In this document: positions 25,991 through 42,051 of the stretch, one piece after another
Layout of the letters: every line of letters starts with the position of its first letter
How positions within the stretch are numbered: position 1 is the first letter of the stretch
From: Methanobacteriota archaeon
Lineage (GTDB): Archaea > Halobacteriota > Methanosarcinia > Methanosarcinales > Methanosarcinaceae
NCBI GenBank assembly: GCA_030054735.1
Contig: JASGVX010000002.1
Span: 1 to 44,459, forward strand
Reading direction: 5' to 3'
DNA: 44,459 nt
Position numbers and translations under genes: made by a program
The notes under the pieces: generated by a model
The model's input: only the letters and a program-made list of their open reading frames with translations
Databases searched by the model: none
Told to the model about the DNA's origin: nothing

Positions 25991-26254
25991 ATGATTAACA
26001 CGTTGATAAGTTCTGTTACAACTGGTCACATCTCAGGCAGCATATTTAACTTCAGTATCATGTCTGATATATTCTTTATGCTTACTTTAGCTTCATTTAT
26101 TTTTACTTTAAATGCTTTCACCCCGGCTACTTTTACTCTGGTTATTTTAACTATGAGTATTTTCCTTATCTTTCAAGCCTGTGCTTATTGCCTCTGGTCC
26201 CATAACTCCAAAAGTGCTGGATTCATAAAAACATTCCTGGAAGGTGTTCTATGA
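25991..26254 (+). CDS. Possible small membrane protein coupled to trkA
   Basis: 87 residues with hydrophobic segments at about 26-44 and 46-68. ATG follows a weak AGAG. The TGA overlaps the trkA ATG as ATGA, and the trkA ribosome site (GGAAGGTG) lies inside its last codons, as in real operons. I know no family for it. It could be a small Trk accessory subunit or a chance frame in the trkA leader. Confidence 0.4.
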   Translation: MINTLISSVTTGHISGSIFNFSIMSDIFFMLTLASFIFTLNAFTPATFTLVILTMSIFLIFQACAYCLWSHNSKSAGFIKTFLEGVL

Positions 26255-27597
26255 AGGCTGTAATTGTTGGTGCAGGGGAAGTAGGCTATCATATTGCAAA
26301 AGCCCTCTCTCCTAAAAATGATGTGGTAGTTATAGAGAAAAACGAGGAAGCATCAAGAAGGGTAGACGAACTTGACGTGCTTGTAATTGAAGGAAACGGT
26401 GCAAATGCAGAAGTCCTTTCAAAAGTCCTGCAAAATGCTGACCTTCTTGCAGCTGTAACAGGCATTGATGAAGTAAATATCGTTGCCTGCATGACTGCAA
26501 AATTGATTGCGAAAAACAAAAACGGCTGGAAGGACATAAAAACCATAGCAAGGGTCAGTAACCCTGACTACATAGACTCCCCATTTGCATCAAGAGCTCA
26601 GGCTGGGGTTGACCTTATGATATGTCCTGAGCTCGCTCTTGCCTCGGAAGTTGCTGATATACTCTCAAGCCCCTCCGCAATAGATGCGGAAATGTTTGCT
26701 GAAGGAAAGGTAAAGATGACTGAATTTGCAATTAGTCCTGAAAGCAAGCTTGTTGGAAAGTATATACAGGACCTTCAGCTTGCTGACTACTGCATTGTCA
26801 GTGCGATTTTCAGAGAAAATGAAATAATTATCCCTCACGGAGACGATTTAATTAAGGCAAATGACCACATGGTGGTTGTGGGCAAGCCGGAAACTATGGA
26901 AAATCTTGAGAACATTTTTGGGAGTGAACTGCCTCACAGAAGCAGAATTCTTGTTATTGGCTGTGGAATTGTAGGCTTATATCTGGCAAAACTGATCGAC
27001 AGAGAGGAAAATGTTGACCTGAGAATTATTGAGCAAAGCAGGAGCCGCTGCATAGAAGTTGCTGATATATTGAAAAATGCCCTTGTTCTCAATGGAGACG
27101 GCACTGATGTCAACCTTTTAAAAGAAGAAGATATTCAGGACATGGATGTTGTTGTTGCTATTACGGACAGTGATGAAAAGAACCTTCTCTGTTCCCTGCT
27201 TGCAAAGCAGCTCGGTGCAAAGAAGGTAATTGCAAGGGCTGACCGCTCGGATTATCTCCCTCTTTTCGAGATGGTCGGTATAGATATTGCCGTAAGCCCA
27301 AGGGAAGCAACAGTAAATGAAGTCCTTAAACTTACCATGGGAAGAGGTATACAGACGCTTAGAACTATCGAAGGTGAAAGAGCTGAAATCATAGAATATA
27401 CGGCGTCCGACAAGTCTAAAATTGTGGGCAAACCTTTGAAAAAGGTAAAATTCCCAAAGGGATCTCTTGTCAATATGGTAGTACGTGGAACAGAGACCAT
27501 AATTCCAAGAGGAGAGTTCGTTATCAATGAAGGAGACCGTGTTGTTATTTTTTCCATGGCTTCAGCTGTTTCGGAAGTAGAAAAATTTTTTAAGTAA
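26251..27597 (+). CDS. trkA: Trk potassium uptake regulatory subunit TrkA (copy 1)
   Basis: Cytosolic gating subunit of the TrkH channel. 448 residues in two RCK halves: the first Rossmann motif VGAGEVGYHIAK (6-17), the second IGCGIVGLYLAK near 234-245, each followed by a TrkA_C domain. Conserved ARVSNPDYI and ARADRSDYLP segments are present. GGAAGGTG is 6 nt upstream. It is closely similar to copy 2 by eye. The C-terminus (FSMASAVSEVEKFFK) differs from copy 2. Confidence 0.95.
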   Translation: MKAVIVGAGEVGYHIAKALSPKNDVVVIEKNEEASRRVDELDVLVIEGNGANAEVLSKVLQNADLLAAVTGIDEVNIVACMTAKLIAKNKNGWKDIKTIARVSNPDYIDSPFASRAQAGVDLMICPELALASEVADILSSPSAIDAEMFAEGKVKMTEFAISPESKLVGKYIQDLQLADYCIVSAIFRENEIIIPHGDDLIKANDHMVVVGKPETMENLENIFGSELPHRSRILVIGCGIVGLYLAKLIDREENVDLRIIEQSRSRCIEVADILKNALVLNGDGTDVNLLKEEDIQDMDVVVAITDSDEKNLLCSLLAKQLGAKKVIARADRSDYLPLFEMVGIDIAVSPREATVNEVLKLTMGRGIQTLRTIEGERAEIIEYTASDKSKIVGKPLKKVKFPKGSLVNMVVRGTETIIPRGEFVINEGDRVVIFSMASAVSEVEKFFK

Positions 27598-27950
27598 GTT
27601 TTACAGGAGAGGGATGCTATTATTCCTATCACGACTCATAGAATGATTTTTGGCATTTGCCTTTGACAAACCTGAAGAAGCTCTGGTTCCGGAGAATAAA
27701 GAGATGTTTGAAACAATGGTGTTTCTTGTAGCTCTTGCGTTTGAACGCCTATGAAGTAATATGAAAATAGACCATAAAAAGAAAGTACTGATAATTCAAT
27801 ATTTTCAAACTTTTTTATTCTTTTCACATTATATTATTTCTTAGAAACTCACCTATTTACGCTTTCTATCACTAATTTTCTATCTCCAAAGACTACTTAA
27901 GCAAGCAGGAGCAATCTATCTGAAAAGGGCTATTTTTTCGAGAGAATCTT
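27598..27950. other. trkA1-trkA2 gap with a gene relic and a repeated promoter motif
   Basis: 353 nt. The first half has the kinase-like relic at 27653-27754. The second half has TTAGAAACT at 27841-27849 followed by AT-rich DNA with partial likeness to the promoter region before trkA1, so trkA2 probably has its own promoter. Confidence 0.45.
27653..27754 (+). pseudogene. Short relic resembling a GAF-domain end of a KdpD-like kinase
   Basis: A 33-codon frame without start gives AFAFDKPEEALVPENKEMF then ETMVFLVALAFERL and stop. The pattern (Pro-Glu, acidic helix, ...ALAFERL) is like the end of the GAF domain in KdpD-type sensor kinases. That would suit a potassium locus, but the fragment is short and the match is by eye. 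Confidence 0.35.
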
Positions 27951-29297
27951 ATGAAAGCAGTAATTGTAGGAGCAGGCCAGGTAGGATTTCATATTGCAAA
28001 GTTTCTTTCCCTCACACACGATGTGATTGTTATTGAAAAAGATGAAGATGCCCTGAGAAGGGCCGATGAGCTGGACATTCAGGTCGTGGAAGGGAATGGT
28101 GCAAATGCGGATATTCTCGCAAATGTTCTTCCTGATACGGATATTCTCGTTGCTGTCACCGGGGTTGATGAAGTAAATATTGTTGCGTGTATGACTGCAA
28201 AACTTATCATAAAGTCACACCCTGGCTGGAAAGAAACTAAAACTATTGCCAGGGTCAGCAACCCTGATTACATTGATGTACCCGTTACATCCAGATCCCA
28301 GGTCGGAGTGGACATTATGATATGTCCTGAACTCGCTCTAGCTTCGGAAGTTGCTGATGTGCTTTCCAATCCTTCTGCAATATATGCGGAAATGTTTGCC
28401 GGAGGAAAAGTAAAGGTTACTGAGTTTGCCATACGTCCTGATAACAGGCTTGTGGGAAGGCAGATGTATGACCTCAAACTCGATGACTGCTGCATTGTCA
28501 GCGCTATTTTTCGGGAAAACGAAATAATTATTCCCCATGGAGACGACTTAATCAAAGCAAATGACCACGTGGTAGTCGTGGGCAAGCCCAGGGGCATGGA
28601 AGACCTGGAGAAAGTTTTTGGGAACATAGAGCCTCACAGAAATAAGATTCTCCTTATCGGGTGTGGAATTGTAGGTTTTTACCTTGCCAAGATTATAGAT
28701 AAAGACGAAAATACAGATCTCAAGGTTATTGAGTACAGGAAAAGCCGCTGTATAGAAGTTGCCGAGATACTTGAAAACACCCTTATACTTAATGGAGACG
28801 GCACTGATGTAAACCTCCTCAGAGAAGAAAGTATTGAGAATATGGATGTTGTAATTGCAGTTACTGACAACGACGAAAAGAACCTTCTCTGTTCTCTCCT
28901 TGCAAAGCAAATGGGTGCTAAAAAAGTAATTGCAAGAGCAGACCGTTCGGATTATCTTCCTCTTTTTGAGATGGTTGGAATTGATATTGCAGTAAGCCCG
29001 AGAGAAGCAACAGTAAACGAAGTCCTTAAACTTACCATGGGAAAAGGTATAGAGGCACTTGCAACGCTTGAGGGAGAAAAAGCAGAAATTATCGAGTATA
29101 CTGCATCAAGACAATCTAAAATAGTAGGGAAAAAACTTAGCAAGATTAAGTTCCCTAAAGGCTCACTCGTTACCATGGTGGTTCATGGCGAAGATGTCAT
29201 CATCCCAAGAGGAGAAACTGTCATCCTGGAAGGGGATAGAGTTATTGTTTTTGCCCTTTCTTCTGCTGTCAGGTCTGTTGAGAAATTGTTTAAATGA
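27951..29297 (+). CDS. trkA: Trk potassium uptake regulatory subunit TrkA (copy 2)
   Basis: Second 448-residue TrkA with the same two-RCK layout: VGAGQVGFHIAK and IGCGIVGFYLAK nucleotide motifs, and the same ARADRSDYLP block. The C-terminus (FALSSAVRSVEKLFK) matches the relic between the trkH genes better than copy 1 does. No strong Shine-Dalgarno is seen. The separate upstream motif suggests its own control. Two intact TrkA proteins beside two TrkH could form distinct or mixed complexes. Confidence 0.95.
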   Translation: MKAVIVGAGQVGFHIAKFLSLTHDVIVIEKDEDALRRADELDIQVVEGNGANADILANVLPDTDILVAVTGVDEVNIVACMTAKLIIKSHPGWKETKTIARVSNPDYIDVPVTSRSQVGVDIMICPELALASEVADVLSNPSAIYAEMFAGGKVKVTEFAIRPDNRLVGRQMYDLKLDDCCIVSAIFRENEIIIPHGDDLIKANDHVVVVGKPRGMEDLEKVFGNIEPHRNKILLIGCGIVGFYLAKIIDKDENTDLKVIEYRKSRCIEVAEILENTLILNGDGTDVNLLREESIENMDVVIAVTDNDEKNLLCSLLAKQMGAKKVIARADRSDYLPLFEMVGIDIAVSPREATVNEVLKLTMGKGIEALATLEGEKAEIIEYTASRQSKIVGKKLSKIKFPKGSLVTMVVHGEDVIIPRGETVILEGDRVIVFALSSAVRSVEKLFK

Positions 29298-29350
29298 GGA
29301 ATAAATACAATTCTTTTCTTTTGCTGCTCCTTATATCGAAATATCATTAA

Positions 29351-29469
29351 GGAATGGTGCAAATTTAATTTCAAAGACTTATGCCTTACATTGCCATTAA
29401 TGATACTGGGAACTGCAATTATAGAGCCATTAGCAAAGTGAAAACTTGAAATCATATTTCAACTATTCC
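29351..29469 (+). repeat. About 120-bp interspersed repeat, copy B
   Basis: Runs GGAATGGTGCAAATTT to CAACTATTCC and is the plus-strand counterpart of 12706-12828. It lies in the trkA2-trkH1 gap, so it is inserted in an operon-like setting and may alter trkH1 expression. Confidence 0.8.
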
Positions 29470-29535
29470 TGAGCAGGAATAAATACAAATACAAATACAG
29501 AGTAAGGGCATAAGTTTCAAAAAAAGAGGAGCAGC

Positions 29536-30969
29536 ATGAATTATAAAGTTGTCCTGTATGCACTTGGAGGTTTGCTCAGGCTCCTGGGTCTATTTATGAT
29601 AATCCCTTTAGGGGTTGCATACTATTACGGGGAAAGTTTAACTCCTTTTCTGGTTTCTATTTTTATAACTTCCCTTACAGGATTTCTCCTGCTCTCCTTT
29701 AAGACCAGAGATGAATGGATGCGGAAGGAGGGATTTGCTATTGTTGCTCTGGGCTGGCTTGCAGCTGCCATTTTTGGAGCAATCCCTTTCATAATGGATG
29801 GAATTTCCCCTCTTAATGCACTTTTTGAATCCATGTCAGGATTTACAACCACAGGATCATCAATTCTTACTGATATAGAAAGCCACCCGAAAAGCATCCT
29901 TTTCTGGAGAGGTTTGATTATGTGGATAGGGGGCATGGGCATTATTGTGCTCTTTATTGCAATACTTCCAAAACTGGGGGTTGCAGGACGCCAGCTTTTC
30001 CGTGCCGAATCACCTGGGCCAACTGAGGATAAACTTAAACCGAGGGTTAAAGATACTGCAAGAATTCTCTGGATGGTCTATTTTGTGATCTCATTGGCAA
30101 TGGTTATTGCTCTCATGCTTGCAGGCGTTTCTCTCTATGATGCACTTAATCACACTTTTACTACAATGGCTTGCGGAGGTTTCTCAAATTATGCACTGAG
30201 TATTGGAGCTTTCAGGAGCCCTCTAGTTGAGTATATAATAACCCTTTTTACCTTTATTGCAGGCGCAAATTTTGCTCTTCATTATAGAGCAATCTATATA
30301 GATAAGAACTTCCTTCTTAAAGACGAGGAATTCAGGTTCTACACCGCTATTGTCCTTTCAGCAAGCGGACTTCTTACTTTTCTGCTCTGGAGGGATATGG
30401 GTACAGGTCTTCTTGATTCATTCAGGCTTGCAATTTTCCAGGTAGTTACAATCATAACAAGTACAGGATTTTCATCAACAGATTTTAATCTCTGGTCCGA
30501 ACCTGCTAAAATGGTTCTTCTTGTAGTTATGTTCATTGGAGCCTGCGCCGGTTCTACAGGTGGAGGAATCAAAGTTGTACGCATTCTGATCTTACTCAAA
30601 CACAGCAGGGCAGAACTGTTCAAGGCCCTTCACCCGAGAGCCGTAAAAAGCATCAAATTCAATAATAAACCTGTCCCTGATGAAGTTGTCAGCTCTATTG
30701 TCTCGTTCACTGTTATATATCTCCTTGTCTTTCTCACAAGTGCACTTATTCTCTCGCTTCTTGGGTCGGATATTATAACTTCAATTACTGCTTCCATAGC
30801 TACCCTTGGCAATATAGGGCCGGGCCTTGGTGAAGTAGTGGGTCCTATGGGCTCTTTTGATCCAATTCCTCCTCCTGGGAAGTTAGTTCTGATTGCAAAT
30901 ATGTGGATCGGGAGGCTTGAAGTCTATACAGTTATTTCGCTATTGACGCCTGAGTTCTGGAAAAAATAA
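29536..30969 (+). CDS. trkH: Trk potassium uptake channel TrkH (copy 1)
   Basis: The membrane K+ channel/translocation subunit, 477 residues with four M1-P-M2 repeats. The pore loops show SGFTTTG (first), TTMACGGFSNY (second), TSTGFSSTDF (third) and ATLGNIGPGLG (fourth), each with the filter glycine. GAGGAG is 5 nt before ATG. The C-terminus (LLTPEFWKK) is usual. It pairs with TrkA. Confidence 0.95.
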   Translation: MNYKVVLYALGGLLRLLGLFMIIPLGVAYYYGESLTPFLVSIFITSLTGFLLLSFKTRDEWMRKEGFAIVALGWLAAAIFGAIPFIMDGISPLNALFESMSGFTTTGSSILTDIESHPKSILFWRGLIMWIGGMGIIVLFIAILPKLGVAGRQLFRAESPGPTEDKLKPRVKDTARILWMVYFVISLAMVIALMLAGVSLYDALNHTFTTMACGGFSNYALSIGAFRSPLVEYIITLFTFIAGANFALHYRAIYIDKNFLLKDEEFRFYTAIVLSASGLLTFLLWRDMGTGLLDSFRLAIFQVVTIITSTGFSSTDFNLWSEPAKMVLLVVMFIGACAGSTGGGIKVVRILILLKHSRAELFKALHPRAVKSIKFNNKPVPDEVVSSIVSFTVIYLLVFLTSALILSLLGSDIITSITASIATLGNIGPGLGEVVGPMGSFDPIPPPGKLVLIANMWIGRLEVYTVISLLTPEFWKK

Positions 30970-30979
30970 TTCCTTGAAA

Positions 30980-31111
30980 AATTCAATTCTTAGCATGATA
31001 GTTGATGGAAAAGACGTAATTGTCCCAGGAGGAGAATCTGTCATCCAGGAAAGGGATAAAACTATTGTTTTTGCTCTTTCTTTAACTGTCAGGTCTGTTG
31101 AGAAATTGTAA
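30980..31111 (+). pseudogene. trkA: trkA C-terminal relic between the trkH genes
   Basis: From ATG 30995 a 38-codon frame gives MIVDGKDVIVPGGESVIQER then DKTIVFALSLTVRSVEKL and stop. This aligns residue for residue with the end of TrkA copy 2 (MVVHGEDVIIPRGETVILEG, then DRVIVFALSSAVRSVEKL). Bases just upstream (AAATTCAATTCT) still echo the preceding trkA codons. The other 400 codons are deleted. It marks the site of a lost trkA directly before trkH2. Confidence 0.9.
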
Positions 31112-31170
31112 AACAAGGAATGAAACCGAGTACATTGAAAAAATCTTAAGCTGCAAAATGGTGGATCCAT

Positions 31171-32601
31171 ATGAATTATAAAGTCGTCCTGTATGCACTT
31201 GGAGGTTTACTCAGGCTTCTGGGCTTTTTCATGATATTCCCTCTTGGAGTTGCATATTATTATGGAGAAAGCTTAACTCCTTTTCTTGTCTCTATCTTCA
31301 TAACTAGCTTTACAGGATTTCTCCTGCTCTCCTTAAAGACTAAAGATGAATGGATGCGGAAGGATGGCTTTGCAATTGTTGCTCTGGGATGGCTTGCAGC
31401 TGCCATCTTTGGTTCAATCCCTTTTATAATGGATGGAATTTCCCCTCTTAATGCCCTTTTTGAAGCCATGTCGGGATTTACAACTGTTGGATCAACAATT
31501 CTTACTGATATTGAAAGCCATCCAAAAAGCATTCTTTTCTGGAGAAGTCTAATTATGTGGCTCGGTGGCATGGGTATTATCGTGCTTTTTATTGCCATCC
31601 TCCCTAAACTCGGAGTTGCTGGCCGCCAGCTATTCCGTGCCGAAATGCCTGGACCAACTGAGGATAAACTGAAACCAAGAATTAAAGATACTGCAAGAAT
31701 TCTCTGGACGCTTTATTTCGTAATTTCATTGGCAATGGTTCTTGCTCTTCTTCTTGCAGGAGTTTCTTTATATGACGCACTGACTCACACTTTTGCTGCA
31801 ATGAGTTGCGGAGGTTTTTCCAACTATTCATTGAGTGTTGCGGCTTTCAATAGTCCTCTTGTAGAATGCATAATAACTTTTTTCACTTTCTTTGCAGGTG
31901 TAAACTTTGTTCTTCATTATAGAGCAATTTATATAGACAAGAATTTCCTGCTTAAGGACGATGAATTCAGATTATATGTTACTATTGTCCTTTCAGCAAG
32001 CGGACTTCTTACTTTTCTGCTCTGGCGGGATATGGGTACAGGACTTTCTGATTCTTTCAGGCTTGCAATTTTTCAGGTCGTTACAGTCATAACAACTACA
32101 GGTTTTTCATTAACAGATTTTAATCTCTGGCCCGACTCTGCAAAAATGATACTTCTCATACTTATGTTCTCAGGGGCCTGCGCCGGTTCTACAGGTGGAG
32201 GAATCAAAGTTGTTCGTATTCTCATTTTACTAAGGCACAGCAGGGTGGAATTATTTAAGGTCCTGCATCCGAAAGCCGTAAGAAGTGTAAAATTCAACAA
32301 TAAAATTGTGCCAGATGATGTTATAAATTCTATTTTCTCCTTTATGGCGCTATATTTCCTTATTTTTGTGTCAAGCTCTCTCATCCTCTCAGTACTGGGT
32401 ATGGATATGATAACCTCAATTACTGCTACAGCAGCCACTCTAGGGAACTTAGGTTCAGGCTTTAATGTAGTAGGCCCTATGGGATCTTTTGACCCCATTC
32501 CTCCTCTAGGAAAATTAGTCCTGATAGCTAATATGTGGATCGGGAGGCTTGAAATATACACGGTGCTCGTACTCTTTACACCGGAGTTCTGGAAAAGATA
32601 A
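31171..32601 (+). CDS. trkH: Trk potassium uptake channel TrkH (copy 2)
   Basis: 476 residues, nearly collinear with copy 1. The pore loops are SGFTTVG, AAMSCGGFSNY, TTTGFSLTDF and ATLGNLGSGFN. The first and fourth loops differ from copy 1 next to the filter glycine (TTTG to TTVG; NIGPGLG to NLGSGFN), so ion affinity or gating may differ. GGTGGATCC lies just before ATG. Confidence 0.95.
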   Translation: MNYKVVLYALGGLLRLLGFFMIFPLGVAYYYGESLTPFLVSIFITSFTGFLLLSLKTKDEWMRKDGFAIVALGWLAAAIFGSIPFIMDGISPLNALFEAMSGFTTVGSTILTDIESHPKSILFWRSLIMWLGGMGIIVLFIAILPKLGVAGRQLFRAEMPGPTEDKLKPRIKDTARILWTLYFVISLAMVLALLLAGVSLYDALTHTFAAMSCGGFSNYSLSVAAFNSPLVECIITFFTFFAGVNFVLHYRAIYIDKNFLLKDDEFRLYVTIVLSASGLLTFLLWRDMGTGLSDSFRLAIFQVVTVITTTGFSLTDFNLWPDSAKMILLILMFSGACAGSTGGGIKVVRILILLRHSRVELFKVLHPKAVRSVKFNNKIVPDDVINSIFSFMALYFLIFVSSSLILSVLGMDMITSITATAATLGNLGSGFNVVGPMGSFDPIPPLGKLVLIANMWIGRLEIYTVLVLFTPEFWKR

Positions 32602-32703: not shown

Positions 32704-32724
32704 GATGCCTGAAAAACAGGCATC
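32704..32724. terminator. Bidirectional hairpin terminator between trkH2 and the lipid genes
   Basis: GATGCCTG, loop AAAAA, CAGGCATC is a perfect 8-bp stem between convergent genes. T-rich tracts follow on both strands (TTTATTTTTTATC on plus, CTTTTTATTCC on minus). The reductase stop codon lies in the stem's right arm. Confidence 0.7.
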
Positions 32725-33946
32725 ATGGTTTATTTTTTATCACTTCTTTTGCTGCATCCTTAAAAAGCACACGAAGGTCCCAGAGCAGTTTTTTATTGGC
32801 TTTGAAGAGAGCCTGGAGCAGGTCAAAGAGGTTCATTCTTTCAAATTTCACATCTTTTAACGAATGAGCAAGCGAGTCAAGTTCAGCGTCATTAAGGTTG
32901 ATAAAGCAGTTCTTTACGATGAGGCTCATGTCGATATCATGACCTATAGTGGCTCTCCATTTTTCCTCATATAGCTCTTCAAGTTTTGCCAGGGAGACAT
33001 CGCCTGCAGATATGGCTTCGTAAGCAGCTTCTCCAGCCAGTTTGCCTGCATCCATGGCATTGATGATACCGCCGCCTGTGATCGGGTCTGAGTGGCGTGC
33101 AGCGTCTCCTACAAGCATCAACCCATTAGCTGAAGTTTTCTCGATGCTGCCTGATACCGGGACTCCGCCGAAAACCATCTCAACCACCCTGGCATCCGGA
33201 AACCTTTTTTGCAGGAAATCATTCAGATAATCAACAGGTTTTGCTTTGAATTTTCCCATTCTGCTCCCGAGAATCCCTACCCCGACATTGGCTTTGCCTT
33301 CTCCTTTAGGAAAAACCCAGATATAACCTCCGGGTGCGATCTCATTTCCTACATAGAACTCGCAGTATTCCTGATTTACGTCCGCGCCTGCTATCAGGAA
33401 CTGAGTACAGGTCTCAATATCTGCGGGCTTCAGTGCGGTATCGATTCCTGCCCACCTGCCTACTTTTGATTCGACTCCGTCAGCTCCTATTACTATTTCT
33501 GCACGCACCTCGTAATCTTTTCCTAGATGCATGAGTCTGGCTCCTTTTACGAAGTCGTCTTCAATGATAAGGCCTGTAGCTCTTGTTTTTACTCTAACTT
33601 CAACTCCAGCGAATGCAGCCTGTTCCGCAAGAGCCCGGTCAAAGACCTTTCTCTCAAGCACATAGCCGACCTCACTTCCTGAAATTTCCTCGGCCATCTC
33701 TATCTTTGTGCCGTCCGGAGAGAAAATTTGGGAACCTTTCAGGTCAGCACAAATCCAACGCTTGTCGATTTCTATATGTTTTTTAAGGTACTCTTTACTC
33801 ACGCCTTCGGCACAGCGTACAGGATCACCTATTTCCTGGCGTTTTTCAATTAAAAGTACATCAAGCCCTTTTTCCGCGGCTGTTTTTGCAGCGATGGAAC
33901 CTGCAGGACCGGCTCCTATGACCAGAACATCATATTTGTCCTTCAT
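32723..33946 (-). CDS. Digeranylgeranylglycerophospholipid reductase
   Basis: FAD enzyme of the geranylgeranyl reductase family, which saturates the isoprenoid chains of archaeal ether lipids. 407 residues: FAD loop [12 protein letters not shown] (9-20), the PVRCAEGVS motif with the family Cys near 45, the substrate-side [19 protein letters not shown], and the second FAD motif [15 protein letters not shown]. The ATG overlaps the stop of the upstream ferredoxin gene (ATGA), so the two are coupled; this kind of ferredoxin is the known electron donor for the Methanosarcina enzyme. It lies with the Tes-like gene. Confidence 0.93.
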
Positions 33947-34119
33947 TTCATTACCTCGATTGCTCCTACAGGGCAGATGCGATCACATATCCCGCATACT
34001 ATGCAGATAGTTTCATCTACTTCAATCCAGGTTTCTACAAGTTCGAGCGCTCCTTTAGGACAAACTCCCACGCAGGCTCCACAATATCCACATCTATATC
34101 TGTTTATGTTGATGCTCAC
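33943..34119 (-). CDS. 2[4Fe-4S] ferredoxin, donor to the lipid reductase
   Basis: 58 residues with two CxxCxxCxxxC clusters (Cys10/13/16/20 and 39/42/45/49). Start is GTG 34119, 4 nt after AGGTGA; the open frame extends to 34227 but the extra N-terminus is hydrophobic, has no ribosome site and is unlike ferredoxin. The stop overlaps the reductase start (ATGA). Coupled expression supports a dedicated electron-transfer pair. Confidence 0.9.
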
Positions 34120-34227: not shown

Positions 34228-34653
34228 TTTTATTAGACTGATGATTGCAATATGGTTTCTAAGAGTTTCTTATTAAGCAATATTTTGAAACTTTATGCTC
34301 TACGAATAAACCTTTTTTAACTTCCATGATAATATTCTTATTACACAAATTCTCTTATCAAGAAAATCAGATCTGAATTCAGATTCATTCTTTTAAGAGC
34401 TTACTCTTTCGAATAGTTTTCACAATTAATGTATTTTTCTACTTAAAAGTTATTGGCTTTATTAGAGCGACGCATTCAGTATAAATATTCTTCTCTTGCT
34501 TTTCTCATTATTATATAAGTTATTTATATATCTATGAATTATATTTTAGCGTTTTAAGGAAATTTTCATTCTTTTATTTATTAAGCAGTAATGGAAAGAA
34601 AATTTGAGATATTTGAGATATTAGAGATATAATTCATTAAGGGAGTAGGAGAA
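34228..34653. other. Gap between the ferredoxin and Tes-like genes
   Basis: About 430 nt of AT-rich DNA with no gene that I can support. A small GAGATATTTGAGATATTAGAGATAT run lies at 34606-34630, just past the Tes-like stop. Its length suggests that the ferredoxin-reductase pair has its own promoter here. Confidence 0.45.
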
Positions 34654-36171
34654 TCAAGCTGCTCCTCTTTGCTGAACTTCCATGAATTCATTCTTATACT
34701 CCATAATTTCTTTGTATGGTTTCGAATATCTTGCTTCCACTTCTTCTCTGTGAAAATTGTTATAGGTGCAGAAGGGAATGACCCTGCCATCAGGGATAGC
34801 ATAGTGGATTCCGCAGCGTTTAGCTCTTTCCAGATCTATGTTGTAGAGATCCTGGAAGTGCATAGCCCCAAGAAAAAGCGTTTTTCTATGGAACTGAGCA
34901 ACCTGTTCTATTGAACCGGTTTTCAGAATATTGCTCACCAGGGAGAGTATTTTAAGGTCTTTTGGGATTCTGGATTCATCAATGTAGCGCGGAAGCTGAC
35001 TTATAACTTTTGCTACATTCTTTACGTGAAGACCCGGCTCATAAAATTCGGGAGTGACATCCTCAAGGAATTCAAGGAACCCTTCCACATCCACGAACTC
35101 ACTTATAGGAATTAGTTTTCCCTCTTTTTCAAAAACATAAGTGGCAGCTCCACAGAGAGGGTGCACTGTGAACTCGGGGAGTGGGACCTTTCTAAGCGCA
35201 GTCAGGAACCGGCTGATGGGTACTGCTGCAGATGCAGGGTACCAGGCTTCAATGGGGATTTCTCCTCCTGTTTGTTCTTCCAAGAGTGCTGCAAGATCGG
35301 GAATTGTAATTCTTTGCTCTTCACGCAGGGCCTGGTCAATACGGCCGGTGAATGCTACCGGCTGGAAATTTACTCCTTTAACCACGTCTCCGTTTCTTGC
35401 TGCAAAACGGACAATATCTCCAACCTGGTGCTCATTAACACCTTTTATTAGAGTAGGTACGAGCACAACACTGGTCAGGCCAGCCTGCCTGCAGTTCTTA
35501 AGGACCTTTTGTTTTACAGGAAAGGCATTGAATCCCCTTGTTGCCCTATATGGTTCCTCGGAGACCCCGTCAAAGGATAGATACACTGTATGGAGTCCTG
35601 CCTCCCTCAAGTCATTACAGTATTCCTGAGATTTTGCGAGCCTGATACCATTAGTTGCAATCTGGACCTGTGAAAAACCGAGTTTTCGTGCTAATTCGAT
35701 TATTTCGGGCAGGTCTTCCCGGACAGTAGGCTCACCTCCAGCAAACTGGATTGCGTAGCAGGGAACAGGTTTTTCATTCCGGAGAGTCAGCATCATTTCC
35801 CGGATCTGCTCAAATTCCGGTTCATATATAAAACCGCTTGCTTTTGCATTAGCAAAGCATACCGGACAATTGAGGTTACAGCGGTTTGTCAGATCAATGT
35901 TTGCAAGCAGAGTCCCCGACTCGTGTCCAGAGCAAATTCCGCAGTCCAATGGACAGCCAGAGTAAGAAGAAATTGTATAATTTAAGACCCCACTGCCGAT
36001 ATATGAATAGCGGTTGAACTTTTTGTAAAGTTCGCTATCCGACCAGTAAGTGTCCAAAAAGGTCCCATGTTCGGGGCACGTTTTTTTCAGCATTATCTTT
36101 CCATCTTCTTCAAACAAGGTGGAATCAAGAACTTTTTTGCATTCTGGACAAACAGACTTTATTTGTTTCAT
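34654..36171 (-). CDS. tes: Radical SAM protein, tetraether lipid synthase (Tes)-like
   Basis: 505 residues. Cysteine layout: CPEC (8-11) and CPEHG (Cys32) form a rubredoxin-like site with part of the N-terminus; CPLDCGIC (73-80) is an auxiliary cluster; CNLNCPVC (98-105) is the CxxxCxxC radical SAM motif, followed by GGEP at 145-148. More Cys near 350, 457 and 472 can ligate further clusters. This multi-cluster pattern is that of Tes/GDGT-MAS, which couples two diether lipids through their biphytanyl ends. GAGG is 7 nt before ATG. The neighbours (ferredoxin, geranylgeranyl reductase) are lipid genes. Another radical SAM role is possible, but this call fits best. Confidence 0.85.
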   Translation of the reverse strand: MKQIKSVCPECKKVLDSTLFEEDGKIMLKKTCPEHGTFLDTYWSDSELYKKFNRYSYIGSGVLNYTISSYSGCPLDCGICSGHESGTLLANIDLTNRCNLNCPVCFANAKASGFIYEPEFEQIREMMLTLRNEKPVPCYAIQFAGGEPTVREDLPEIIELARKLGFSQVQIATNGIRLAKSQEYCNDLREAGLHTVYLSFDGVSEEPYRATRGFNAFPVKQKVLKNCRQAGLTSVVLVPTLIKGVNEHQVGDIVRFAARNGDVVKGVNFQPVAFTGRIDQALREEQRITIPDLAALLEEQTGGEIPIEAWYPASAAVPISRFLTALRKVPLPEFTVHPLCGAATYVFEKEGKLIPISEFVDVEGFLEFLEDVTPEFYEPGLHVKNVAKVISQLPRYIDESRIPKDLKILSLVSNILKTGSIEQVAQFHRKTLFLGAMHFQDLYNIDLERAKRCGIHYAIPDGRVIPFCTYNNFHREEVEARYSKPYKEIMEYKNEFMEVQQRGAA

Positions 36172-36243
36172 TCATACGCCTCACAAATTCGTTTGTAGTC
36201 ATATCAGATTGCTTTTTCAGGCCTTTTCAGGAAGCATTTCTCT

Positions 36244-36873
36244 TCAAACCCTGTTGTGATTCTTTGTGTCTTTTTTTACAATATTCTCTGCCAGGAGATC
36301 AATAATAATCTTCATAATTTCTGGAAAATCATCATCCTCAGTTTCATTACTGAAATTTATGAGGGAAAGTACCATATGGGTGGTTTCAGCCAGCAGTCTT
36401 GCAGGTTTATCTATCAGAAGACCGGCAGCTTCCCACTCTTCAAAGAAAGGCAGAATTATTGCCACGTTATCTCTACGGATTTTTTTAATTTCTTCTTCAG
36501 AAGACCTTGAAATTGTCAGTTCAAGGTGTTCTTTTTCAAGGAAAACTTTTCTCCAGACCGGGTGGTTATTTACAATATGCAGTACATACTGGAGATAAGC
36601 CCTTAGAGCTTTATCAGGCTCAGTCCTGTATTTCAGGAAGGAGTTTTCCAGTATACTGTCCTTTAAGGCTTCTCGCTCTTCTGTAAAGATTTGCAGAAAG
36701 AGATCCTCTTTGCTGGTAAAAAAGGAATAAAAAGAACTCTTTGAAATTCCCAGGCCTTCGGTAAGATCTCCAATACCTGTTTTCTTAACTCCATATCTGG
36801 CAAAGCAGTCTTTCCCACGGTCTATAATATTTCGCTTTATGATCTCTCTTTCTTCATCTGTAAAAGATCTCAG
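36244..36873 (-). CDS. TetR-family transcriptional regulator, CTG start
   Basis: Continuous frame of 209 residues. The N-terminal HTH is typical TetR: RNIIDRGKDCFARYGVKKTG, then IGDLTEGLGISKSSFYSFF with SKEDLF. A helical ligand-binding domain follows. The frame has no ATG, GTG or TTG between an upstream TAA and the HTH. CTG at 36873 precedes RSFTDEEREIIKRN and follows GAGGTGAG, a near-perfect ribosome site, 4 nt away, so I take CTG as start. A mutated ATG (dead gene) is the alternative. It lies 72 nt upstream of the Tes-like gene on the same strand and probably controls it. Confidence 0.8.
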   Translation of the reverse strand: MRSFTDEEREIIKRNIIDRGKDCFARYGVKKTGIGDLTEGLGISKSSFYSFFTSKEDLFLQIFTEEREALKDSILENSFLKYRTEPDKALRAYLQYVLHIVNNHPVWRKVFLEKEHLELTISRSSEEEIKKIRRDNVAIILPFFEEWEAAGLLIDKPARLLAETTHMVLSLINFSNETEDDDFPEIMKIIIDLLAENIVKKDTKNHNRV

Positions 36874-36900
36874 TGCCTCACCTCTTCTGGAAAAAACTCC

Positions 36901-37537
36901 AGGGTTTTGCAGAGTTTATTGAGGATATAAAGTCTGAACGTATTTATTGAACGTATCTATTCGAGAATAAAAAATCAAAAATATCAATGAATTATTGATT
37001 TTTTTGTTCATAGCATAATGTACACACCAGTTATTTATATTTTATGTGGTGCTTTTCTATCGTCTGCTTCCTCAAATTTGGAATAGGCGTCAAATAAACC
37101 AATTATAAACTATTGTCATGTCAGTCATTAAGGATTATACAATTTTGAATTCTTGTAATCGATTATATACGATATTTTAATACTGACGCAACACTATTCC
37201 TTTAAACTTAAATTACGAAAAAAAGGCAAATTAGGCCATAATATAGATTAAATCAGATATGATCCACTATAACATATAATCTTAAACAAAAACAAAATAA
37301 AAGCTCATCATACACAACATATGTCTCAGTAAACAGATACAAAAACAGAAACTTCTCCGGAATCGCTTAATCTAACATGCAACTCTCCAAATTCCTCACC
37401 TTTAAGTGCAGGCATGTGAGAATTCTCTGTTGCAGGGCATCCACAAAAAAATTCAAAAAAAGAAATTCCAAAACGTGGAAACTTTCTTTTTTGAAAAAGC
37501 GCCTGGACTGGATAGCAGCACCTTTACTCAATGGGGT
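36901..37537. other. Gap between cofC and the TetR gene
   Basis: About 640 nt, AT-rich. A minus-strand frame ending at 37326 includes MPALKGEEFGELHVRLSDSG plus nine residues (ATG 37415); it reads like coding sequence, but no family is evident and it may be a relic. Upstream of tetR the TTATTTATATTTTATG TATA run is flanked by CACCA (37025) and TGGTG (37047). Confidence 0.4.
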
Positions 37538-38164
37538 TCAAAGCGGCACCAGTATAACTCTTCCTCTGCTGACTGCGAGTTTGAACTTCCGGTTAATGTA
37601 GTCCTTTGCAGGCCCTTTTCCATGTATGAGGAGTTCTACCAGGTCTTCAGGCTCATCTATGTCCGTGCCTGCCAGGAAGGAATCATAGATTTCAAAGCTC
37701 TGCCCAAAATCTGCTGCAATTGAGCAGTGAGTTAGAAAACTCGAACCGTAATACCTTACTCTGTATTTCGAAGGGTTCTTTATAAAAATGGCATTCGTAC
37801 CTCCGCCTTTTCCGGGGACGATGCAGATATCCTTTTCAGTTGAGGTTATCTCCTTTACATGCTCTGGAGAAAGGAGAGGAAGGTCCGCCATAACAATCAG
37901 GACAGGCCCATCTTCTTCTTCAAGATAGCTGTTAAGGGCTTCATTCAGGTCTTTTTCGTCCAGCAGAACTCTTGCTTTCTTCATGGCTTCAAGTCCGTAG
38001 CCTGAAGGGCTGAGAATATCGACATTTTCTATTACGGCTTCTGTGATGCAATCTATTACCTGGTTTAACATGAGTTCTACAAACTCTTCCCTTTCCTGCA
38101 AGCTCAGGACAGGCGATAACCTGGATTTTGCACCGGCTTTTTTGTAAGGGATTACAGCTCTCAT
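37538..38164 (-). CDS. cofC: 2-phospho-L-lactate guanylyltransferase
   Basis: Makes LPPG from 2-phospholactate (or enolpyruvate phosphate) and GTP, for the side chain of coenzyme F420. 208 residues with a GT-A-like fold: AVIPYKKAGAKSRLSPVL at the N-terminus, VIMADLPLL (metal and nucleotide), PGKGGGTNAIF and the GTDIDEPEDL end. Last of the cofG-cofH-cofC run, about 95 nt after cofH. GGAG lies 5-6 nt upstream of ATG. Confidence 0.95.
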   Translation of the reverse strand: MRAVIPYKKAGAKSRLSPVLSLQEREEFVELMLNQVIDCITEAVIENVDILSPSGYGLEAMKKARVLLDEKDLNEALNSYLEEEDGPVLIVMADLPLLSPEHVKEITSTEKDICIVPGKGGGTNAIFIKNPSKYRVRYYGSSFLTHCSIAADFGQSFEIYDSFLAGTDIDEPEDLVELLIHGKGPAKDYINRKFKLAVSRGRVILVPL

Positions 38165-38258
38165 CTGGGCTCCTGCATATTTTCGTTTTTTATTTTTGTT
38201 TTTTATTTAAGGAGAAGTCTATATTTATATAAAAGGTAACTCTTTTTTTTCAGGTTTT

Positions 38259-39413
38259 TTATTCTTTGCTGCCCATTTTTGCTCTTGCATAATTAGGAAG
38301 CAGGCGTTCCTGTTCTGAAAATCTGGGTTCTACCTTCCTGTAAAGCGTATCTCTCTGCATGGGGACTCTTCCTGCCCCTTTAATCATCCATTCAAACTCT
38401 GCAGGAGATACGTATTCTCCCTGGCTGCCCCCGGACGCTGTTGAGATCTGGTCTTCCACAAGAGTGCCTCCGAGGTCGTTTGCACCGCAGTGCAGGGCTA
38501 CCTGAGCAAGCTTCTTTCCTAATTTTACCCATGTAGCCTGAATATTTTTAACATGAGAATGCAAAATTACGCGGGAAATAGCTATAAGCTGGAGGTCTTC
38601 AAGCCCTGTGCTTGAGAATTTCCCGGATGCAAGCATCTTTTCCCCTATCGGGTTATTGTAGGGCAAAAAAGACATCGGGATAAATTCAGTAAACCCACCG
38701 GTCTCTTTCTGGATCTCACGGATAGAAAAAACATGGTCCAGGCGCTCTTTAAGGGTCTCGACATGCCCGTACATAATGGTGGCATTGCTGGAAATTCCTG
38801 TTTTATGTGCTGCAGTTATAGTATCAATCCACTGCTGGGAATTGATTTTTCCAGGGCATATGACCTTTCTCACCCTGTCAGAAAGGATCTCGGCCGAAGT
38901 CCCGGTAAGGGAATCAAGCCCGCTTTTTTTAAGCCTGCAGAGGGCTTCTTCAACGGACATGCCTGAGATTCCTGCTGCATAATTTACTTCCATAGGGGAA
39001 AGGGCATGAACGCAGATATCAGGGAATTCGGCTTTTATTGATTCTATAATCTCAAGATAAAACTCCATATCAGCTTCCGGGGTATATCCTCCTTGAATGC
39101 AGATCTCCACAGCTCCGGCTTTTACGGCTTCTCCTGTTTTACTAAGGATTTCTTCGACGCTCAGGATATATCCTTTATCTGTCCTGTAGGCGCAGAACCC
39201 GCAGTTTCCGATGCATTTGTTTGTTATATAGATATTCCTGTTCACCACATAACTGACAGCATCACCTGCAATACTGGCACGCAGGTCGTCGGCTAGCTCA
39301 AACAGCTCAAAAGGGTTTCCTTCGAGCAGGAGGAGGGCATCTTCTTTAGTGCATTTTCCCTGGTATGCCCTTTCAATTAGGTCTTCTGGAGTTGTCGGTT
39401 TTTTCGTGTACAT
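38259..39413 (-). CDS. cofH: F0 synthase subunit CofH (radical SAM)
   Basis: Transfers the hydroxybenzyl group of tyrosine to 5-amino-6-ribitylaminouracil, the first step to the F420 chromophore. 384 residues with CIGNCGFC (Cys67/71/74) radical SAM motif, the GGYTPEADM segment and the SGGSQGEYVSPAEF end shared with CofG/MqnC relatives. GGATGATC lies just before ATG. It works with CofG, whose gene is just upstream. Confidence 0.95.
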   Translation of the reverse strand: MYTKKPTTPEDLIERAYQGKCTKEDALLLLEGNPFELFELADDLRASIAGDAVSYVVNRNIYITNKCIGNCGFCAYRTDKGYILSVEEILSKTGEAVKAGAVEICIQGGYTPEADMEFYLEIIESIKAEFPDICVHALSPMEVNYAAGISGMSVEEALCRLKKSGLDSLTGTSAEILSDRVRKVICPGKINSQQWIDTITAAHKTGISSNATIMYGHVETLKERLDHVFSIREIQKETGGFTEFIPMSFLPYNNPIGEKMLASGKFSSTGLEDLQLIAISRVILHSHVKNIQATWVKLGKKLAQVALHCGANDLGGTLVEDQISTASGGSQGEYVSPAEFEWMIKGAGRVPMQRDTLYRKVEPRFSEQERLLPNYARAKMGSKE

Positions 39414-39469
39414 CCGATCATCCTTTTTTTAATTCCATCATTTCCCTGACTGTTACATGGCTGTCTGGC

Positions 39470-40534
39470 TTATTCGGAAATCCTGGATCCTGCAGCCCTT
39501 CCATGTTTCCTGTAGCCTTCTCTATCTGAGAGCCCTTCGATGAGGCTGCCAATCCTTTCCGAATACCACCCATTTTTCACATATTGAGGGTAAACTGGCA
39601 GGCGTTCTTTAAGCGGGATATCCCCCAGCTTTTTCTGCAGGTCCTTTACGTCGGGCCATTCTGCTTCGGGGTTGATCCAGTCAATTGTAAGAGGAGATAT
39701 GCCTCCAAGGTCTCTTACTCCCTTTGCGATAAGGGCTCTGGGGTCTATGAGATTGGGAGCAACCTGGACTGCCACGTCATGGGGGAGGACCCTGTAAGCA
39801 AGGGCTACAGAATCCATCATCTCTTCAACAGTTGGCGCAGGGAAATTTTCCATGGCAGTCCCTGGCTTAGGGGCAAAATTTTGTATAATTACTTCCTGAA
39901 TGTGGCCGTACTCCCTATGAAGCTCTGCTATTGCTTCAAGCGATTCTATTCTATCGTCCCTGCTCTCCCCTATCCCTATAAGGAGGCCTGTAGTATAAGG
40001 AATCTCCAGTTTTCCGGCATCCCTTATTGTCTCAAGCCTGCTTTCAGGAATTTTTCCGGGGCAGTCTTTATGGGCGTCCAGAACTGCTGTGCTCTCAAGC
40101 ATCAGCCCCATACTCGCATTCAGGGGCTTTAAAGCTTTAAGTTCAGAGCGGGTCATTATTCCTGCATTAGTGTGAGGAAGAATTCCAATATCGATTGCAG
40201 TTTCACAGAGGAAAAGCACATATTCAATAGTAGAGGAATAGCCAAGCTCTTCAAGCATTGTTCTGTATCCGTATACTTCTTCTGCCCGCTCTCCGAAGGT
40301 GAAAAGGGCTTCTGTACATCCCGCCTTCACCCCGTTTTTAAGGATAGAAAAAACCTCTTCAGGCTTCATGAGCCGGGCCCCGGGCTGTCCGGGCTTCCGC
40401 CGAAAACCGCAGTAAGCGCAGTGGTTTCTGCAGATATTGGTTAGAGGGATGAAAACGTTTTTTGAATAAGTTACAAAAGGGATTTTTTTCGATGGAATGC
40501 AAAACACCTGCTGAATCTGGTTTTCTGGCTTCAA
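39470..40534 (-). CDS. cofG: F0 synthase subunit CofG (radical SAM)
   Basis: Completes F0, the deazaflavin ring of F420, from the CofH product. 354 residues with CRNHCAYC (Cys35/39/42), the TFGERAEEVYGY motif and QNFAPKPGTAM. The start is TTG at 40534, overlapping the stop of the upstream flavoprotein gene (TTGA). cofH follows 56 nt after its stop. Confidence 0.95.
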   Translation of the reverse strand: MKPENQIQQVFCIPSKKIPFVTYSKNVFIPLTNICRNHCAYCGFRRKPGQPGARLMKPEEVFSILKNGVKAGCTEALFTFGERAEEVYGYRTMLEELGYSSTIEYVLFLCETAIDIGILPHTNAGIMTRSELKALKPLNASMGLMLESTAVLDAHKDCPGKIPESRLETIRDAGKLEIPYTTGLLIGIGESRDDRIESLEAIAELHREYGHIQEVIIQNFAPKPGTAMENFPAPTVEEMMDSVALAYRVLPHDVAVQVAPNLIDPRALIAKGVRDLGGISPLTIDWINPEAEWPDVKDLQKKLGDIPLKERLPVYPQYVKNGWYSERIGSLIEGLSDREGYRKHGRAAGSRISE

Positions 40535-41808
40535 CTCAGGATTTTTCCCATAACTTCCGAAACGCCAAGAGCTACTCCTTCTACTTCTATGCCTCCTTTT
40601 CCTTTGGCTCCGTCTCCAACGACATAGAGCCCGGAAAAAGGAGTTTTATTTCCAGGGTCCGTACCCGAAGCCGCCCTGTTTACAGGCCACTCGTCATGGT
40701 ATGACTGTATAAGAAGGACCTCGTACTTTTTACCCGGAAAAATCTCTTTAAGGTCCGCAAGGCCCATTTCGATTTCGGATTCGAGGTTTTTTACATTTTC
40801 AGGGGCGACATACTGGTGGGACATTGTAAGGTGCTTTCCAGGAGGGGCGAGTTTCGGGTCAGCCTGAGTAACTTCATTTACTCCGTTTATGCGCCTTGTA
40901 TATGGAGTCAAAAGGACTCCGTCATGCCCAACAAGAGGCTCGTCTGCAGCAAGGCAGATCTTTATGCCTGCAGAGGGTTTGAGGGTCTCAAGCATTTTAA
41001 GGTAAGCTGCATCCTCCTCTCTAGAAAGGGCTTCAGCGCAGAGCAAAGCAGTTGCAACATGGCCGAGGTTGCTGATTAGAATATCAGCTTCATATTTTTT
41101 GTTCTCAACAATTACCCCTGCAGCCTTCCCATTATCAATCAGAATTTTTGAGACTTCCTTTCCAGTATGTATTTTTCCTCCATTTTCAAAAATAACCTCT
41201 TCAAGAGCATCAATAACCCCTTTGCAGCCTCCTATAGGTACACCTGTTCCTCCGAAGCGGTACAAATTTTCAATAATCTCGAAAATTTCTTCTACCTGGA
41301 CTTCGCCGCTTTTCAGGCTGAGAGCCCAGCCACAGAAAGAATCGGCAAATTTAATCAGCCACTCATCATTGACCTGGGCCTTTATCCAGGCCTGAAGGGT
41401 GCTTCCCGAAGGGCGGTTCTTTCTCGTGCTCACAGTCAAGAGAGCTATTTTCATGCGGTCTTTATAGGAAAGAAGCGAAGGAAATTCATTAAAAGAAATA
41501 TCTTTAAAGCCTTCCGTGTAATCCGGTTTTCCTTTTTCTAGAGGCACACGTATACTGGTCTTTTCTGAGCGCACTATATCTACATCAGCCCCTATTTCCC
41601 TGAGCAGCATGGCAAGCGGGCCTCCCGGCCCATGAGGAATCATATGAAAAGCTCCGCTCGACAGCTGGAACCCTTTATAACTGAGGTTGGTAAACCTGCC
41701 TCCTGTAATAGGAAGCCTTTCAAAAACTTCAACTTCATGCCCTGCTTTTGATAAACGGGCAGCACTTAAAAGCCCTCCAAGCCCTGCCCCGATGACAATC
41801 GTTTTCAT
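40531..41808 (-). CDS. FAD-dependent oxidoreductase, phytoene desaturase-like
   Basis: About 425 residues. FAD-binding VIGAGLGGLLSAARLSKAG (5-23), then the GGR(F)T loop, and a C-terminal GLYVVGDGAKGKGGIEVEG flavin motif. The family includes carotenoid desaturases, isomerases and saturases. ATG 41808 overlaps the ferredoxin stop (ATGA), and its own TGA overlaps the cofG TTG, so it is translationally coupled on both sides. Substrate unknown: an isoprenoid, or an F420-pathway intermediate, are both possible from the context. Confidence 0.85.
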   Translation of the reverse strand: MKTIVIGAGLGGLLSAARLSKAGHEVEVFERLPITGGRFTNLSYKGFQLSSGAFHMIPHGPGGPLAMLLREIGADVDIVRSEKTSIRVPLEKGKPDYTEGFKDISFNEFPSLLSYKDRMKIALLTVSTRKNRPSGSTLQAWIKAQVNDEWLIKFADSFCGWALSLKSGEVQVEEIFEIIENLYRFGGTGVPIGGCKGVIDALEEVIFENGGKIHTGKEVSKILIDNGKAAGVIVENKKYEADILISNLGHVATALLCAEALSREEDAAYLKMLETLKPSAGIKICLAADEPLVGHDGVLLTPYTRRINGVNEVTQADPKLAPPGKHLTMSHQYVAPENVKNLESEIEMGLADLKEIFPGKKYEVLLIQSYHDEWPVNRAASGTDPGNKTPFSGLYVVGDGAKGKGGIEVEGVALGVSEVMGKILS

Positions 41809-41966
41809 GCCGGGACCTCTATGGCTTTTACCGGGCAGTAGGGGATACAGATCCCGCATTCCACGCAGGCATCAGTAACCCGTGCTCTTCCCTTTACTTC
41901 TATTGCTCCCTTTTTGCAAAAAGAAGCGCACTGGCCGCACCCTACACAATTATCGTTTATCTTCAT
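41805..41966 (-). CDS. 2[4Fe-4S] ferredoxin heading the F420 operon
   Basis: 53 residues with Cys7/10/13/17 and 34/37/40/44, a regular two-cluster ferredoxin. ATG 41966 follows GGTGGA at 4-5 nt; the longer frame to 42044 adds a basic, non-ferredoxin tail and is not used. The TGA overlaps the flavoprotein ATG. It probably feeds electrons to that flavoprotein. Confidence 0.9.
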   Translation of the reverse strand: MKINDNCVGCGQCASFCKKGAIEVKGRARVTDACVECGICIPYCPVKAIEVPA

Positions 41967-42051
41967 GCGTTCCACCAGCTTTCTATCGTGAAAAGACTTA
42001 TTATAATGTGTTGGTATAGCGTGTCGCTTACACGTTCTTAACATGACGGTG

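Follow-up and report, generated by a model that had tools for sequence, protein, structure and literature searches.

Which genes does a TetR-family regulator control when it is encoded upstream of a tetraether synthase (Tes) and, further along the same strand, of a ferredoxin and a geranylgeranyl reductase (GGR)? This question is raised by a Methanosarcina genome of 2.88 Mb and 99.4% completeness, the contig C2 of which was analysed over 44,459 nt (hereafter the window). A reading of the sequence alone had placed saturation and cross-linking of membrane lipids in one cluster with its own candidate sensor of lipid state.

Genes of the locus

The genes lie on the minus strand in the order TetR, Tes, ferredoxin-GGR pair (Table 1). 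The gap between tetR and the Tes-like gene is exactly 72 nt, in agreement with the sequence-only reading, and Pfam and NCBIfam bear out the assigned gene identities as well as the ferredoxin-reductase pair that was said to follow on the same strand. The ferredoxin and GGR genes overlap by 4 nt and are separated from tes by about 0.5 kb.

Table 1. Features of the tetR-tes-ferredoxin-GGR locus, in window coordinates.
Feature	Position	Strand	Evidence
TATA-like box AAATATAAATA of tetR promoter	37032..37042	-	Conserved in 19/19 TetR genomes
17-bp dyad ATCAATAATTCATTGAT, candidate TetR operator	36983..36999	.	Conserved in tetR upstream regions; column permutations
Shine-Dalgarno-like GAGGTGA before tetR CTG start	36878..36884	-	Sequence and ortholog comparison
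TetR-family regulator, 209 aa, probable CTG start	36244..36873	-	Pfam TetR_N; start aligned with ortholog ATG/GTG; AlphaFold model with TetR fold
tetR-tes gap (72 nt) without conserved promoter	36172..36243	-	Gap alignment; PWM scan
Tetraether synthase Tes (MA_1486 type), 505 aa	34654..36171	-	NF045702; match to 7TOL; metal ligands
Conserved element AGCCAATAACTTTTAA preceding ferredoxin, candidate promoter of ferredoxin-GGR	34443..34458	-	Sequence conservation
4Fe-4S ferredoxin; GTG at 34119 is the likely start, with the open frame extending upstream of it	33943..34119	-	Pfam Fer4; place corresponds to MA_1485 in G001
Geranylgeranyl reductase	32723..33946	-	Pfam GGR_cat; TIGR02032

Tes scores 717.2 bits against NCBIfam NF045702 ("tetraether lipid synthase Tes", cut-off 450) over residues 4-485, and Pfam recognises a radical SAM domain and an N-terminal zinc-ribbon-type domain. 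It matches the structure of the tetraether synthase MJ0619 (7TOL, PMC9433317) with an E-value of 2.9e-176, aligned over residues 2-488, and the cluster ligands are common to both proteins. These are the rubredoxin-type CX2C-X20-CX2H (C8/C11/C32/H35), the N-terminal auxiliary cluster (C73/C77/C80/H83), the radical SAM CX3CX2C (C98/C102/C105), and the C-terminal auxiliary cluster (C340/C453/C468, assigned by alignment and not from the published text) with its labile methionine M437. Ferredoxin and GGR are recognised by Pfam (Fer4, 6e-13; GGR_cat, 1.4e-29) and GGR also by TIGR02032 (242.6 bits, above cut-off); the two components of an archaeal GGR system, a GGR catalytic domain and an adjacent 2[4Fe-4S] ferredoxin partner, are thus both present.

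Zeng et al. (PMC8941075) showed that expression of MA_1486 from M. acetivorans in Methanococcus maripaludis leads to GDGT, and that MA_1114 yields only traces of macrocyclic archaeol. Judged by its sequence, Tes of the window is the ortholog of MA_1486, the published tetraether synthase; formation of GDGT from archaeol has been shown for MA_1486 only. The window proteins are 80% (Tes), 92% (ferredoxin), and 86% (GGR) identical to those of genome G001, which we take to be M. acetivorans C2A. The order of MA_1486, MA_1485 (ferredoxin), and MA_1484 (GGR) is the same as in the window. Because this adjacency is published, having served Zeng et al. as a clue (PMC8941075, available part), the tes-ferredoxin-GGR neighbourhood is not new; MA_1484-1485 were later used together for archaeol production in E. 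coli (PMC12042123). The available part of PMC8941075 mentions no regulator. Unlike M. acetivorans, the window genome carries only the first Tes type and lacks a second one (MA_1114 type).

The frame of tetR is open from 36244 to 36915, and its first in-frame ATG/GTG/TTG occurs only at 36465, well within the coding region. At 36871-36873, the window genome, G025, G007, G009, and G027 have CTG, and the other orthologs ATG or GTG; GAGGTGA sits 4 nt upstream. The gene is intact, with CTG as its probable start codon. That it is broken for want of a standard start was ruled out by the alignment of CTG with ortholog ATG/GTG codons and by its recurrence in the four other genomes. The five related genomes with CTG at this position offer a naturally occurring example of a probable non-standard start codon in archaea.

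The protein has the helix-turn-helix of the TetR family at its N-terminus (TetR_N, PF00440, 39.7 bits vs. a cut-off of 24, 4.3e-10), followed by an all-helical C-terminal domain (Pfam, AlphaFold model). The model (pLDDT 78.6, weak around residues 101-140) matches TetR-fold structures, and the recognition region is nearly invariant among orthologs. FasR of NCBIfam reaches 27.6 bits against a cut-off of 330, and the other equivalogs are all far below theirs. The top VIA match (Z 14.0, 3.0 Å over 176 residues, 15% identity) is the DNA complex of FadR from Sulfolobus acidocaldarius (6EN8). FadR is also an archaeal TetR-fold regulator tied to lipid-related genes and, according to the available part of PMC6449355, regulates fatty acid metabolism; its complex with lauroyl-CoA has been solved. 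It differs from TetR of the window in pathway, and its scores are tied with those of many bacterial TetR proteins. Because the best matches, including FadR, tie with dozens of TetR proteins, the structure does not allow a ligand to be inferred. Searches of the open-licence literature found no report of GDGT synthesis being regulated by a TetR protein.

Further genes flank the locus. Upstream, on the same strand, are cofC, two cofG/cofH-type radical SAM genes, a CrtI-like oxidoreductase, and a second ferredoxin (37538-42044). Most relatives possess a further radical SAM gene (about 61% identity with the one at 38259-39413), and this copy is absent from the window. On the other side (26251-32601), sequence similarity indicates genes of potassium uptake type: two TrkA-like genes side by side (26251-27597, 27951-29297) and, after them, a pair of TrkH-like genes (29536-30969, 31171-32601).

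Distribution of TetR and tes in the genus

Among 31 Methanosarcina genomes, four states of the locus were distinguished, and wherever the contigs allow a view its place is constant, between cofC and ferredoxin-GGR. TetR occurs together with the MA_1486-type tes in 12 genomes (in G025 with ferredoxin-GGR on another contig), intact TetR without this tes in seven (G007, G008, G009, G011, G021, G024, G027), and a TetR remnant in one (G010). The remaining 11 have neither; in one of these (G020), GGR was not located.

This type of tes was never seen without TetR, and the two are adjacent in 12/12 Methanosarcina genomes that have it, so that the adjacency in related genomes, on which the sequence-only reading had made its proposal depend, holds. 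Because of these 12 genomes, a chance adjacency is ruled out. The hypergeometric chance of the co-occurrence is about 4e-4 by a hand calculation that counts the genomes as independent, which they are not. A regulator dedicated to tes is not supported: the seven genomes that keep TetR without tes have it directly upstream of ferredoxin-GGR. No convincing tes remnants were found in the tes-less loci.

In the locus-gene tree, several branches of which are weak, the tes-less genomes with TetR are found among the tes-bearing ones in at least two parts. If inheritance was vertical, tes would have been lost about four times while TetR persisted; transfer is the alternative. The ratio of mean dN to mean dS is 0.095 among the seven tes-less TetR genes and 0.145 among the other twelve (some synonymous distances are near saturation), and by this measure TetR is under purifying selection in the seven tes-less genomes. 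Since TetR is kept intact with a low dN/dS where tes is missing, it is selected for something besides tes, and its retention in several lineages requires at least one other use. GGR is present in all genomes that are at least 90% complete, many of them without TetR, and therefore saturation runs without TetR.

A close relative of TetR was not found in the family outside the genus. One distant TetR (32%) occurs in G104, about 25 kb from tes and thus not adjacent. The 20 tes loci sampled outside the genus have no TetR or GGR neighbour.

The first Tes type and a second one (63%) form sister groups (95/95 support), as would be expected from a duplication on the stem of Methanosarcina. Some Methanosarcina genomes have both paralogs (L041, L054 and relatives), some one or none. 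The second type is located elsewhere, with no relative of TetR or GGR of the window nearby. At L045 6085-7385 and L100 5646-6862, GGR of G026 is seemingly interrupted or frameshifted in the assembly, and that of G002 matches in two overlapping pieces.

Upstream regions of tetR and of ferredoxin-GGR

A TATA box upstream of tetR is common to all 19 TetR genomes. About 46 bp downstream, centre to centre, these genomes share a block centred on a 17-bp dyad. Of 301 column permutations, only 1 attained its mean palindromy (0.75 of pairs). Changes in its arms compensate, the outer pair being C-G in some genomes and A-T in others. The leave-one-out PWM score at tetR is 12-26 bits in 17/19 genomes; two tes-less genomes, G008 and G011, have a degraded dyad. 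We consider the dyad a candidate TetR operator at the regulator's own promoter. Archaeal transcription starts about 26 bp after the TATA centre. The dyad would therefore lie just inside the transcript, and a bound repressor would thus block initiation or early elongation. A sigma-70 promoter scan is irrelevant to archaea.

Before ferredoxin, PWM scores are within or near background. They are low in 11 of the 12 tetR-tes gaps, the exception being a 12.6-bit match in the long gap of G030, and the alignment of these gaps (58-273 nt) revealed no conserved promoter. Among the matches listed, hardly any further exact copy of the dyad turned up in the genomes examined. A recurrent second site that would indicate a wider regulon was not recognised in the genomes scanned, among the matches listed, few of which were inspected.

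Ferredoxin-GGR has an upstream element of its own. In TetR-bearing genomes, AGCCAATAACTTTAAA, followed by a conserved stretch, is usually located 310-390 nt upstream of ferredoxin (662 nt in G008; diverged in G013). The element also occurs in G010, which has the TetR remnant. Genomes that lack TetR entirely do not have it, and the majority of these have another leader in common. The genus thus has two types of ferredoxin-GGR upstream region, one found only with TetR or its remnant and the other only without TetR. In six genomes scanned, no recurrent second place of the element was recognised. That the two types track TetR is the strongest indication of a role of TetR in ferredoxin-GGR expression, although linkage between adjacent stretches of DNA would account for it just as well.

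As regards the proposed TetR-governed cluster, the promoter dyad and the lack of a conserved promoter in the aligned gaps are compatible with an autoregulated tetR-tes unit. A joint block with ferredoxin-GGR is not supported, given the 0.5 kb in between, the separate element, and the lack of a dyad in front of ferredoxin.

Reach of the regulator

On balance, we favour a self-regulated tetR-tes transcription unit, with ferredoxin-GGR apart from it and with a further use for TetR. The most likely binding site of TetR is the 17-bp dyad shortly after the transcription start of tetR, and from there it would repress the tetR-tes unit, whose co-transcription we infer; tetR may harbour a promoter near its 3' end, and TetR proteins can also activate. 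A ligand would release TetR, and only then would tes be made. Tes would join the tail ends of saturated archaeol chains to form tetraethers. Saturation would be carried out by the adjoining ferredoxin-GGR pair, which is probably not under the dyad because it is preceded by a separate element and occurs across the genus Methanosarcina.

TetR could instead mainly control ferredoxin-GGR, and hence saturation. In that case tes would be an optional passenger located between the two, and its loss would leave TetR in place. The position of TetR in the seven tes-less genomes agrees with this, as does the presence of the upstream element with TetR or its remnant, but we consider it unlikely, given that no tetR-type dyad was found before ferredoxin and that GGR is present in so many genomes without TetR. 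About equally doubtful is a self-regulated TetR with its main targets elsewhere, for example in stress response, and a merely historical place beside lipid genes. Purifying selection without tes is compatible with such targets, and so are the tied fold matches to general TetR proteins, from which no ligand is readable; the fixed co-occurrence with the MA_1486-type tes argues against them, and no recurrent second dyad site was recognised among the few matches inspected. By far the least probable is the original proposal of one coordinated saturation-plus-cross-linking cluster under a TetR that senses lipid state. The four genes do lie on one strand in conserved order, and the top structural match, FadR with its lauroyl-CoA complex, regulates fatty acid metabolism (PMC6449355, available part), but this match is indistinguishable from many other TetR proteins, and ferredoxin is preceded by the 0.5 kb gap and its separate element. 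The evidence does not reach as far as one co-regulated lipid cluster under a lipid sensor.

Returning to the self-regulated tetR-tes unit, TetR is not solely a tes regulator. Given its retention and the ferredoxin-upstream element confined to TetR genomes, it may also affect ferredoxin-GGR, and it might serve as a dedicated lipid sensor. We are sceptical of the wider view that a genus-specific one-component regulator controls tetraether membrane building via the tetR-tes operator and also tunes chain saturation. If TetR does tune saturation, this would explain its retention with the matching ferredoxin-GGR promoter type after loss of tes.

The Tes part of this locus is known and the regulator part is of modest novelty. 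Tetraether lipids are in wide use as biomarkers. If a transcription factor governs tes, how abundant these lipids are would depend on a signal. Methanosarcina is genetically tractable, and the dyad, together with the natural series of genomes with tetR-tes, with tetR alone, and with neither, makes the question directly testable.
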